A DNA stretch of 40,623 nt from Alphaproteobacteria bacterium (GTDB lineage Bacteria > Pseudomonadota > Alphaproteobacteria > Rhodobacterales > Rhodobacteraceae): contig JAUIDM010000002.1 in assembly GCA_030428915.1 (NCBI GenBank), positions 1 through 40,623 of the forward strand. The letters are read 5' to 3'. The notes beneath the pieces were generated by a model. It did not search any database. It saw nothing but the letters and a program-made list of their open reading frames with translations, and was not told where the DNA came from. This document shows positions 22,346 through 29,358 of this stretch, piece after piece; the first letter of the stretch is position 1; each line of letters begins with the position of its first letter. The position numbers and the translations under genes were made by a program.

Positions 22346-23854
22346 GTGGCGAGAAGTATCACTGACGAGGAAATCGGCTTGATAAAGGCCTTACTTGCTA
22401 GAGGCGAGCGCAATGTAGACATACAATTCCATTTTAACCGGCCAGATAGGCCAGTCAACTCTGGGCGCATTAGTCAAATTAGTAACGGAACTTACGGGCC
22501 AAACGTCCCTGCTGCATCACAAGTTGAGCTCGCGAACTTCCTTGCGATTTTTCAGGTTGCTGGGGTTAGCGTGGCCAAGGATGCGTGGCGGGTTGCGTAT
22601 CGCTTCCACCCCGTGGGACAAGGCATGCTCCACTCTGGCGAATTGCGTCAGGGAAGCCGCCAGCCTTTCACTTGGGTATATGATTGCGGCAGCGTCACCG
22701 CGGCAGCACAGGTCGAGAGCGAGCTCAATGACTTATGCACCGCGCGCAACGCTGCGCCTGGATCAAAACCCAGTCTCGATTTTGTCGCTCTGTCTCATTT
22801 CGACGCCGACCATATTTCCGGCCTCGTGTACCTGCTTGGGCTTTTCGAGGTGAAGATGATCCTCCTGCCCTTCCTGCAGCTCTGGCAGCGGTTCTGGATC
22901 GCGGCATCATCTGATGATCTCGACGCAGACTTTCTGCGGTTTCTAGTCGATCCCGCCGGCTACCTCCGTGACGTAGACGGAGGTGGGGAGGCGAGGATCG
23001 TTTTCGTGCCACCGAGCGCGGACGGCCCCCCGCCCCCGCCCGCGCCCGACGCCGGTCCGCCCGTCGGTCCGCGTGGGGAGGTCGACGACCGGCCGATGAA
23101 ATTACGACTGGAGACTGAACGCGTCCTAGACGTGGTCGGCGGCGAGATCCCCGGCGTGACAGGGCAGCGCCTGTCGGCGGCGGAATTCCTGAAAATGGGA
23201 TCGGTGCTCGACATCGACGGATTATGGGAGTTCGTCCCGTATAACGATGCACACCAAGCCAAGCGTTGCCCGGCAGGTTTCCCGGCGACCGTCGAGCCGC
23301 TGATCAAGACCTTGCTAGACGCCAACCATCCGGCCGATCGGAAAAAGGCCCAGGATGCACTTAAAGCCCATTATGACACGACCTTCGGCAACAGCGCCTA
23401 TCGCCGCAATATCATCTCACTGTTCCTGTACGGCGGTCCGGTGTCGACACCTGCCGAGGCCTATTTCAAGACCGGCGAGACACAACTTGGCAATATGGCC
23501 TGTCACCACAAGCCAGATAGGCCGCGCCTATCCGCGACCCATTTCTCGATGCTGTTCACAGGAGATGGTTCGCTGAACTCAAAGCCGCGCCGGACTGGGT
23601 TCGAGAATTTCTTCACGCCCTATGGCCGCCTCAGCAAGGCCTCGGTTTTCCAAGTGATGCATCATGGCGCGTCCGGGAACTCGTCGCCCGAGGCCGCAGC
23701 CCTTGTGATGCCGCGCGCGAGCATCTTTTGTTCCGACCCCAGCAAGGGCCAAAAGCATCCCGATGCTGACGTGTTGCGGCAGTTCTGGCCCTATAACTGC
23801 ATCCAAGTCGATGATGCGATCGGCTGGCTGATGCTTGGGGTGTTCGTGTTCTAG
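22346..23854 (+). CDS. HTH-like N-terminal domain fused to a ComEC-type metallo-beta-lactamase domain
   Basis: N-term ITDEEIGLIKALLARGERNVDIQFHFNRPDRPVNSGRISQISNGTYG; LSHFDADHISGL metal motif; MLFTGDGS; FQVMHHGASGNSSPEAAALVMPRASIFCSDPSKGQKHPDADVL. Confidence 0.82.
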   Translation: MARSITDEEIGLIKALLARGERNVDIQFHFNRPDRPVNSGRISQISNGTYGPNVPAASQVELANFLAIFQVAGVSVAKDAWRVAYRFHPVGQGMLHSGELRQGSRQPFTWVYDCGSVTAAAQVESELNDLCTARNAAPGSKPSLDFVALSHFDADHISGLVYLLGLFEVKMILLPFLQLWQRFWIAASSDDLDADFLRFLVDPAGYLRDVDGGGEARIVFVPPSADGPPPPPAPDAGPPVGPRGEVDDRPMKLRLETERVLDVVGGEIPGVTGQRLSAAEFLKMGSVLDIDGLWEFVPYNDAHQAKRCPAGFPATVEPLIKTLLDANHPADRKKAQDALKAHYDTTFGNSAYRRNIISLFLYGGPVSTPAEAYFKTGETQLGNMACHHKPDRPRLSATHFSMLFTGDGSLNSKPRRTGFENFFTPYGRLSKASVFQVMHHGASGNSSPEAAALVMPRASIFCSDPSKGQKHPDADVLRQFWPYNCIQVDDAIGWLMLGVFVF

Positions 23855-24113
23855 GTCGTTAAGGTCGTTCCCGACTGCTGTATGGGCGACAACGGTTCGA
23901 AACAGATAACCGGTCGTCCAACGGCGATGCCCGTATAGTCGCTCTTTGGCGCAAAGAAGTGCCATCGAGCCCCGATCGGGCCTTGGCGTATGACTCCGGC
24001 CTGTCAGTCCATGCCGCACGATGTCGTTGATGACCGGTTCAGGGAAGCTGCGCTGCAGCGAAGGGCTTTTCTGAGAACGGCCGCTCAGGGCCGGGCACGT
24101 CAGTTGTGGCGCT

Positions 24114-26825: not shown

Positions 26826-27113
26826 ATGCAGGATGTACTGACCGCCATTTGCGACCCGACCCGCCGCGCAGCACTCGCCCTTCTCTGGGATGGGGGAGAG
26901 CACTGTGTTTGCGAATTGATGGCGAGGCTCGACGCGAGCCAGAGCCGGATGTCGCGGCACATGAAGGTGCTGCGTGAGGCCGGCCTCGTGCTGGACAGAC
27001 GCGACGCGCAATGGGTGCGCTACCGCCGGAACCCCGACCTCGCGCCGGAATTCGCGGCCGTGATCGACGCTGTGCTGACCGCCGAATTCAATCTTGAAAG
27101 GAAGGTCGCATGA
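26826..27113 (+). CDS. ArsR-family metalloregulator
   Basis: DPTRRAALALLWDGGEHCVCELMARLDASQSRMSRHMKVLREAGLVLDRRDAQWVRYR; CVC motif as in As(III)-sensing ArsR. Confidence 0.92.
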   Translation: MQDVLTAICDPTRRAALALLWDGGEHCVCELMARLDASQSRMSRHMKVLREAGLVLDRRDAQWVRYRRNPDLAPEFAAVIDAVLTAEFNLERKVA

Positions 27114-28168
27114 CCGTCGAGACACATGACCCGGCCCCGCATCGCGGCGCGCCCGACTGGCTCTGGTATGTCGGCGTCCCCGCCGTCGGCGCGGTCCTCT
27201 ACCTGCTCTATGGTCAGCTGATACCGATTTCGGAATGGGTGACAGCGCTGTTTCCGGTGGCGCGCGACAGCCACACAGGCGAGGCCATCGCGTTTTTCGT
27301 CTACGACGTGCCGAAGGTACTGCTGCTGCTCACAGGCATCGTCTTCGTCACCGGCGTGCTGCGCAGCTGGTTCAGCCCGGAAAAGACCCGCGCGATCCTG
27401 GCGGGCAAGAACCAGATCTGGGGCTATCCGCTGGCCTCGCTTCTGGGCGTGATGACGCCGTTCTGTTCGTGCTCATCGGTGCCGCTCTTCATCGGCTTTG
27501 TCTCGGCAGGCATCCCGCTGGGGGTGACGTTTTCCTTCCTGATCGCGGGGCCGATGGTCGGTCCGGTGGGCCTCGGGCTGCTCTATGGCCTCGTCGGCTG
27601 GCAGATCGCCACGATCTACCTCGTCTTCGGATTCACCATCGCCACGGTCGCAGGGTTCGTCCTCGGGCGCATGGGGCTGGAGCGCTACCTGCAGGACTGG
27701 GTGCGCGAGCTGAACGCGGGCCCCGTGAGCGATCTGCCCGAGGAACGGCTGACGCTGGTGGACCGGCTGAAGATCGGTGTCGAACAGGTGCGTGAGATCG
27801 TTGGCAAGGTCTGGATCTGGGTCCTCGTCGGCATCGGCATCGGCGCCGCGATCCATGGCTACTTACCCGAAGAGATGATGCTGCGGATCATGGGCGGCGA
27901 GGCCTGGTGGTCGGTTCCCGCGGCCGTCGTCGTGGGCGTGCCGATGTACACCAATGCGGCTGGCGTCATTCCCATCGTCGAGGCGCTGCTGGGCAAGGGC
28001 GCGGCGCTTGGCACGACGCTGGCCTTCATGATGTCGGTCATTGCGCTGAGCTTGCCCGAAATGATCATCCTGAAGCAGGTGCTGAAACTTCGCCTGATCG
28101 CGATCTTCCTCGCGGTCGTTTCGGCGGGGATCCTCGCCACCGGCTTTCTCTTCAACTTCCTGCTGTGA
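27110..28168 (+). CDS. COG0701 permease (ArsP/YraQ-like)
   Basis: TPFCSCSSVPLFIGFVSAGIPLGVTFSFLIAGPMVGP; two-half permease with GVPMYTNAAGVIPIVEALLGKGAALGTTLAFMMSV. Confidence 0.9.
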   Translation: MTVETHDPAPHRGAPDWLWYVGVPAVGAVLYLLYGQLIPISEWVTALFPVARDSHTGEAIAFFVYDVPKVLLLLTGIVFVTGVLRSWFSPEKTRAILAGKNQIWGYPLASLLGVMTPFCSCSSVPLFIGFVSAGIPLGVTFSFLIAGPMVGPVGLGLLYGLVGWQIATIYLVFGFTIATVAGFVLGRMGLERYLQDWVRELNAGPVSDLPEERLTLVDRLKIGVEQVREIVGKVWIWVLVGIGIGAAIHGYLPEEMMLRIMGGEAWWSVPAAVVVGVPMYTNAAGVIPIVEALLGKGAALGTTLAFMMSVIALSLPEMIILKQVLKLRLIAIFLAVVSAGILATGFLFNFLL

Positions 28169-28210: not shown

Positions 28211-28447
28211 ATGAAAACCGTCAAGGTCTACGGCCCCGGCTGCAAGCGCTGCGAGACGACCGAAGCCATGGTCAAGGAGGCCGCCGCAAAGCTCGGCGTC
28301 GCGGTCGAGGTCGAAAAGGTCACGGACGCGAAATCCATCGCCATGGCGGGCGTCATGTCCACGCCGGGCATCTCCGTCGATGGCAAACTGGTCCATGCCG
28401 GTGGCCTGCCGGATGCCGGGAAGCTTGATGGCTGGCTCCGCGCATGA
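28211..28447 (+). CDS. Small thioredoxin/glutaredoxin-like protein
   Basis: MKTVKVYGPGCKRCETTEAMVKEAAAKLGVAVEVEKVTD..VMSTPGISVDGKLVHAG; CKRC redox motif and cis-Pro. Confidence 0.9.
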   Translation: MKTVKVYGPGCKRCETTEAMVKEAAAKLGVAVEVEKVTDAKSIAMAGVMSTPGISVDGKLVHAGGLPDAGKLDGWLRA

Positions 28448-29358
28448 TCCGCGCTTTGGTCGCCGCCGTTGCCGTCCTCGCTTCTTCGACCTTCGCCTTG
28501 GCGGATGCCCTCGAGATCCAGCCGGTCACAGATGATGTCTGGGCGATCGTCGGCCCGCTGGAACAGCGTAGCCCGGAAAATCTCGCCAACAACGCCACCT
28601 TCGGACTGGTTGTGACGCCCGAGGGGGCGGTCCTGATCGACCCGGGCGGGTCCTGGCAGGGTGCCGAGATGCTGCACGCCGTCATCCGCACCGTCACCGA
28701 TCAGCCGGTGGTCCATGTCATCAATACGGGCGGACAGGATCACCGCTGGCTCGGCAACGGCTACTGGCAGGCGCAGGGTGCCACGGTGATCGCCTCGGAA
28801 GCGGCGGTCGAGGATCATCGCGCCCGCGCCGACGACCACATGATCGCACTGTCGCAGTTTCTGGGCGAAGGGCTGGACGGGACCGAACCGGCTTATGCCG
28901 ATGTGACCTTTGAGACCGATTATACGCTCGAGTTTGGAGGCCTCACCTTCGAGATCATGCATCGCGGCGCCGCCCATACGCCGGGCGAAAGTTTCATCTG
29001 GCTCGACGAGCGCGACGTGATGTTCACTGGCGATATCGTCTATGTGGATCGTATCCTTGGCAATGGCCCGGCCCGCGACACTGACAGCTGGATCGCTGTG
29101 TTCGAGGTCATGGCGGCATTTGATCCCGCCCACATTGTGCCAGGACATGGCCACGCGACCGATCTGGCCACGGCCACGCGCGACACCTACGACTACCTTG
29201 TGAACTTGCGCACGCAGATCGGCGCGCTGATCGAGGCTGGCGGGGACATCATGGACGCGCCGCAGATCGACCAGTCGGCCTGGGCCTACCTGGACCAGTT
29301 CGAGGCGCTGGCGGGCCGCAATGCGCAGGCGACCTATGAAGAAATGGAGTGGGAGTAA
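28444..29358 (+). CDS. Secreted MBL-fold hydrolase with atypical metal motif
   Basis: Signal peptide; VVHVINTGGQDHRWLGNGYW in place of HxHxDH; HRGAAHTPGESFIWLDERDVMFTGDIVYVDRI; PGHGHATD. Confidence 0.85.
   Translation: MIRALVAAVAVLASSTFALADALEIQPVTDDVWAIVGPLEQRSPENLANNATFGLVVTPEGAVLIDPGGSWQGAEMLHAVIRTVTDQPVVHVINTGGQDHRWLGNGYWQAQGATVIASEAAVEDHRARADDHMIALSQFLGEGLDGTEPAYADVTFETDYTLEFGGLTFEIMHRGAAHTPGESFIWLDERDVMFTGDIVYVDRILGNGPARDTDSWIAVFEVMAAFDPAHIVPGHGHATDLATATRDTYDYLVNLRTQIGALIEAGGDIMDAPQIDQSAWAYLDQFEALAGRNAQATYEEMEWE

Follow-up and report, generated by a model that had tools for sequence, protein, structure and literature searches.

A stand-alone alphaproteobacterial protein that joins a predicted helix-turn-helix module to a ComEC-type metallo-beta-lactamase domain: a candidate anti-invader nuclease

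ComEC-like metallo-beta-lactamase (MBL) nucleases are already known from several defense systems, namely AVAST (Avs1a), Hachiman (HamM), Lamassu and Canu (CanC), and two related defense nucleases, HamM and CanC, act as activated DNases (PMC12799240). Here, we describe a gene that joins a domain of this type to an N-terminal helix-turn-helix (HTH) module. Its source is the window, by which we mean the whole 40,623-nucleotide stretch of DNA analyzed, an entire 40.6-kb contig of an alphaproteobacterial assembly. On the whole, we lean toward reading its product as a stand-alone anti-invader effector, in which a ComEC-type MBL nuclease, by analogy most likely a DNase, would be controlled by an exchangeable N-terminal HTH. 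In the part of the literature searched, neither the HTH-MBL architecture nor the occurrence of its module on DUF3644 and Schlafen proteins has been described.

An initial annotation, made from the sequence alone, had placed an open reading frame at 22346-23854. This frame was recovered in full, encoding 502 aa from a GTG start, and it contains every string quoted at the time: RGERNVDIQFHFNRPDRPVNSGRISQISNGTYG (residues 19-51), SHFDADHISG, LFTGDG, HHGASGNSSPEA and HPDAD. A Paracoccaceae MAG contig (L026), which is 99.1% identical to the window over 15.9 kb, encodes the identical HTH-MBL protein, and full-length orthologs occur in Rhizobium, Neorhizobium, Tistrella, Jiella, Citromicrobium, Primorskyibacter and Sphingomonas. 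A phage origin of the gene was rejected, with 0 matches in 50,697 phage records. The single IMG/VR match (L001) and a Gemmobacter contig (L040) are both 43,923 bp long and carry the same gene, and were therefore counted once, while one candidate relative (L014) was discarded because it matched in the Pro-rich part only, which is low complexity. The features of the gene are as follows.

22346..23854, + strand: HTH-MBL gene, 502 aa, GTG start (ORF listing; identical protein in L026)
22346..22555, + strand: N-terminal HTH module, residues 1-70 (AlphaFold2 models; module HMM matches on DUF3644, SLFN and MBL proteins)
22556..22585, + strand: low-confidence linker, apparent recombination junction; identity to L023/L025 begins at 22578
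22586..23851, + strand: ComEC-type metallo-beta-lactamase domain, residues 81-502 (local Pfam, NCBIfam and PADLOC matches; Foldseek match to 9ic4; family alignment A3)
22793..22813, + strand: metal-binding motif S150-H151-F-D153-A-D155-H156 (H151, D155 and H156 invariant; D or H at 153)
23009..23218, + strand: Pro/Asp/Glu/Gly-rich, largely low-confidence insert, residues 222-291 (in all 34 relatives)
23408..23419, + strand: N355-x-x-S358 motif (N355 invariant, S358 nearly invariant)
23441..23551, + strand: second low-confidence loop, residues 366-402 (12-56 residues across the family)
23558..23569, + strand: T405-G-D407-G motif (G406 and D407 invariant)
23660..23668, + strand: H439-H440-G441 motif (invariant)
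23756..23761, + strand: H471-P472 motif (invariant)
23855..24085, no strand assigned: downstream stretch, ~73-90% identical to L025 (identity profile)

The DNA-binding-like N-terminal module suggested in the initial annotation is supported by AlphaFold2, which predicts helices at residues 7-18, 23-30 and 39-46 that form a three-helix HTH (residues 7-46), and a fourth helix at residues 59-70. The three-helix HTH was reproduced when the module was folded alone (pLDDT 82.5). No Pfam model matched the module significantly, and a Foldseek search with the HTH model returned almost only HTH DNA-binding proteins (ArdK, GerE, NarL, KorA), at E of about 1 and none of them significant, so that the fold class is plausible and DNA binding is a prediction. 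Short solo homologs of the module show weak Sigma70_r4, KorA and HTH_28 matches. Solo proteins without the RPxRP turn insert were observed in Alphaproteobacteria (L070, L071, L072, L073, L077, L097, L098, L110 and L111).

The module recurs on effectors of quite different kinds. Proteins that match residues 3-70 only already turned up in a plain search with the window protein; in single-sequence phmmer searches, these residues match an SLFN protein (L006) at 1e-18 and a DUF3644 protein (L009) at 1.7e-8, and profile matches of the module reach 1e-35. With profile A1, which consists of nine rows, 26 of 395 genomes from the window's order proved to carry the module, as did 14 of 337 in the class sample and 7 of 399 in the phylum sample, and all matches across these samples fell within the window's class. 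The carriers in the tree comprise 18 DUF3644, 15 MBL and 11 SLFN_AlbA_2 proteins and one other protein (L094), in addition to short solo proteins. Sequence motifs served to sort most carriers, and Pfam confirmed SLFN_AlbA_2 in L006, L010 and L088 and DUF3644 in L009 and L012. Annotated DUF3644 proteins on Phaeobacter plasmids also carry the module. The N-terminal likeness to DUF3644 proteins that the initial annotation had pointed out is real and extends to SLFN AlbA_2 and solo proteins. DUF3644 is a HEPN family (PMC3710099). In PADLOC, a DUF3644 carrier corresponds to the phage-defense candidate PDC-S19 (3e-116), and one SLFN carrier matches PDC-S50 (1e-10) and is referred to here as PDC-S50-like. 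Two further carriers deserve mention. In L094 (1486-2631), the same HTH stands on a fourth effector type, about 310 aa following the module, and this effector part had no Pfam or PADLOC match. In Zymomonas mobilis AN0101 (L047:9992-11545), an in-frame stop parts the HTH from the MBL.

The window gene itself looks like a chimera in which an SLFN-like HTH was joined to an MBL of the L023/L025 type, judging from its sequence. Compared with L025 (Cognatishimia), nucleotide identity stands at 37-48% (~42%) across the first 80 residues, then jumps at around residue 80 to 73-98% (~88%) and stays in that range until ~230 bases beyond the stop; because the downstream stretch is still ~73-90% identical, the segment common to both runs from residue ~80 to past the stop. 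With blastn, similarity to both L023 and L025 starts at 22578. The HTHs of L023 and L025 are of a different, Jiella type, whereas the window HTH is 73% identical in nucleotides over 115 bases, and 68% in amino acids, to that of the Schlafen-type gene L088. The HTH part has a GC3 of 0.50 and the MBL part one of 0.71, and within the MBL part every 78-codon stretch reaches at least 0.62. The MBL tree groups the window with L023 and L025 (100/99), and the HTH tree places the window HTH inside a set made up mostly of SLFN proteins (96/81). When the 80-column HTH alignment was put to AU tests, a single clade of MBL-linked HTHs was not rejected (p 0.13, 0.21), and the case for a swap is therefore built on the nucleotide junction, the best matches and GC3 rather than on the HTH tree. 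We also observed in L023, by eye, an IS66-like transposase between HTH and MBL.

Because chemically different effectors carry one head, the HTH is most simply seen as an input, with an MBL, HEPN or Schlafen domain as output. A broader and more tentative proposal, which we regard as a fair way short of established, is that this mobile HTH can be exchanged between proteins as an input domain and marks out a class of single-gene defense proteins in Alphaproteobacteria. It would have recombined onto a DNase (MBL), two RNase kinds (HEPN DUF3644 and Schlafen) and at least one other effector, often beside restriction-modification (R-M) genes, and would sense invading DNA or failed restriction. In defense systems, effectors are known to be shared between different sensors. 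Here, one small input module appears to be common to effectors that are unrelated, and the swap between them to fall at a sharp boundary of domains. If this is true, then a single HTH ligand would explain the triggering of PDC-S19, PDC-S50-like and HTH-MBL candidates, and natural chimeras such as the window gene would be ready-made swap experiments.

The main rival to the HTH as a sensor, and in our view a rather unlikely one, is that it acts as an autoregulator of the kind found in toxin-antitoxin or phage repressor genes: by repressing the promoter of its own gene, it would keep a toxic nuclease, HEPN or Schlafen enzyme from being expressed until repression fails. Such a role would accommodate one HTH type on effectors of different chemistry and the repressor-like character of the short solo homologs (the weak KorA match, and KorA and ArdK in the Foldseek list), and in the window gene the upstream DNA changed along with the HTH, as is expected if operator and HTH travel together. 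To be set against this is the in-frame stop of the Zymomonas gene, which splits off the HTH, so that the HTH-MBL fusion is not strictly required, whether the HTH is a sensor or an autoregulator.

At the other end of the protein, residues ~81-500 form a predicted ComEC-type MBL domain. The whole-protein AlphaFold2 model, computed from a 34-member alignment of the window protein and proteins from its relatives' loci, has a pLDDT of 83 and a pTM of 0.79, and in Foldseek the MBL part has its best PDB match in 9ic4, the nuclease domain of ComEC (E 2.4e-8). All 34 aligned members keep H151, D/H153, D155, H156, D407, H439, H440 and H471. This match and the invariant metal motifs bear out the MBL domain with a ComEC-like signature that had been claimed, and the claim that a ComEC membrane domain is missing also stands, as the Competence domain was not found in the protein. 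A role in competence was rejected on this ground and because TIGR00361 gave a local match of 22.6 bits, far under its 190-bit cut-off. The Pro-rich insert that had been described as interrupting the MBL domain is real, but it is not peculiar to the window gene: present in every aligned member at 45-92 residues, acidic, and composed of 15% P, 10% D, 10% G and 10% E, it is a disordered loop of the whole family. The output of the MBL is most likely the cutting of DNA, given that the domain in ComEC is a nuclease and that its relatives HamM and CanC work as DNases once activated.

If the protein were a gated pro-nuclease of the AVAST, Hachiman or Canu kind, its two disordered loops would obstruct the active site, and a protease would have to take them off. 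Such gating would fit the ComEC-like MBL fold, the pair of disordered loops that every member has, as do HamM and CanC (PMC12799240), and the local matches obtained with the Avs1a and LmuA models. We nevertheless find it improbable. No trypsin- or caspase-type motif pair was found in the ORFs of the loci, in what was a weak, regular-expression motif scan only; the rhomboid gene that neighbors the window gene is convergent and was not seen beside relatives; and the second loop is, by eye, placed differently from Avs1a-like proteins, which seem to pass from the N-x-x-S strand to the GD motif without a loop. MBL phosphodiesterases such as Apyc1 have the same fold, and one distant relative gave a weak Apyc1 match, but a phosphodiesterase that tunes or counteracts signaling by cyclic nucleotides or other small molecules seems just as improbable, given that the best structural and motif matches are to ComEC, a nuclease, and that no cyclase, CBASS or Pycsar gene was prominent among the neighbors examined. 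The alternative description of the protein as a signaling effector found no specific support.

The neighborhoods of relatives point toward defense. At a threshold of 1e-10, the 89 neighbors of HTH-MBL genes gave matches to 276 PADLOC models, and 89 control genes, which came from ten stretches, few and chromosomal, gave matches to 17; as PADLOC models are redundant and models rather than proteins were counted, this comparison gives a direction and not a fold enrichment. One HTH-MBL gene (L018) adjoins a complete Gabija system, with GajA (1.5e-261) and GajB (1.2e-220), and in L046 a complete SIR2-HerA system precedes the MBL gene. Around the DUF3644, SLFN and L094 carriers, 115 neighbors match 248 PADLOC models, led by type IIG restriction enzymes (5 proteins), and Pfam identifies Eco57I/MmeI and C5-methylase genes beside these carriers. 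Tistrella, Citromicrobium and some SLFN carriers have ordinary metabolic surroundings.

Several other arrangements were seen in these loci. SIR2-HerA pairs (L046:6689-9732, L057:6731-9909) or a HerA gene (L051:7953-9962) lie directly upstream of the MBL gene, and a gene for an ~870-aa SMC/AAA_13-like ATPase (L029:6653-9265; also L036, L038 and L043) recurs upstream of MBL genes with and without the HTH. Similar PLD-like proteins are encoded near an HTH-MBL gene (L018:10507-11859) and near the HTH-L094 gene (L136:13078-14424), the evidence being a PLDc_2 match in L136 and the same N-terminal pattern, by eye, in the L018 protein. In Jiella (L024:11765-16604), the HTH-MBL gene adjoins TniA/TniB/TniQ-like transposition genes, as judged by eye.

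Many of the MBL relatives that have no HTH are operonic with type I R-M genes and coupled to hsdS. Among 42 independent MBL loci, in which L001 and L040 were entered once, hsdM-like genes were near 12, hsdS near 11 and hsdR near 6. There is a 4-nt overlap between the end of hsdS and the beginning of the MBL gene in L001 (7989-9281), L042 (9989-11275) and L037 (7065-8480), with gene identities confirmed by Pfam in L001 and L037, and this overlap spans Alphaproteobacteria and Verrucomicrobia (L037 being verrucomicrobial). These hsdS-coupled relatives suggest a possible, overlooked nuclease add-on to type I R-M.

The window gene is surrounded by VirB-type T4SS genes, a DUF4236-TPR gene, a rhomboid gene and ArsP/ArsR genes, and is not in or beside an hsdRMS operon. 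The initial annotation had assigned it to T4SS-linked accessory DNA, and indeed VirB4 and a T2SSE/VirB11-like gene lie on the same contig. No recognized defense gene was present among the genes scanned in this neighborhood, which is T4SS accessory DNA and not a defense island, and so the reading of the gene as a defense gene derives from its relatives. It is the relatives of both halves that occur in R-M and defense neighborhoods. The window also holds a SoxH-like (quinoprotein relay) metallo-hydrolase gene adjoining genes for an ArsP/SaoE-type permease and an ArsR-like protein (28444-29358 and 27110-28168; ArsR by eye).

Under our preferred reading of the window protein as an anti-invader effector, we infer that the HTH would form the input side, binding DNA or a regulator/DNA complex that is present during invasion. 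The bound HTH may hold the nuclease domain in place or bring it there, and the disordered loops could keep the nuclease quiet until it is engaged, upon which it would cut invader or host DNA. The MBL-only relatives would probably receive the same input from partner proteins instead, perhaps from HsdRMS, SIR2-HerA or the SMC-like ATPases.

With the MBL pro-nucleases of AVAST, Hachiman, Lamassu and Canu, the window protein shares a ComEC-type MBL fold, the HxDxDH, GD, HHG and HP motifs, disordered loops and, through its relatives, a defense context. It belongs, however, to another sequence family, with 25.3 bits for NF041809 against a 420-bit cut-off and only local PADLOC matches, and its family differs in its N-terminal HTH, in having no partner protease by motif scan and in the apparently different position of the second loop. 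The ComEC/Rec2 nuclease domain (9ic4) resembles it in fold and metal motifs, whereas the window family has no Competence membrane domain and is fused to an HTH or coupled to R-M genes. The DUF3644 HEPN proteins (PDC-S19) have the same N-terminal HTH and R-M neighborhoods, but their effector is a HEPN domain and not an MBL. Finally, the bacterial Schlafen AlbA_2 proteins (PDC-S50-like) also carry this HTH, and it is to theirs that the window HTH is nearest, although the effector to which it is attached is in their case Schlafen AlbA_2.
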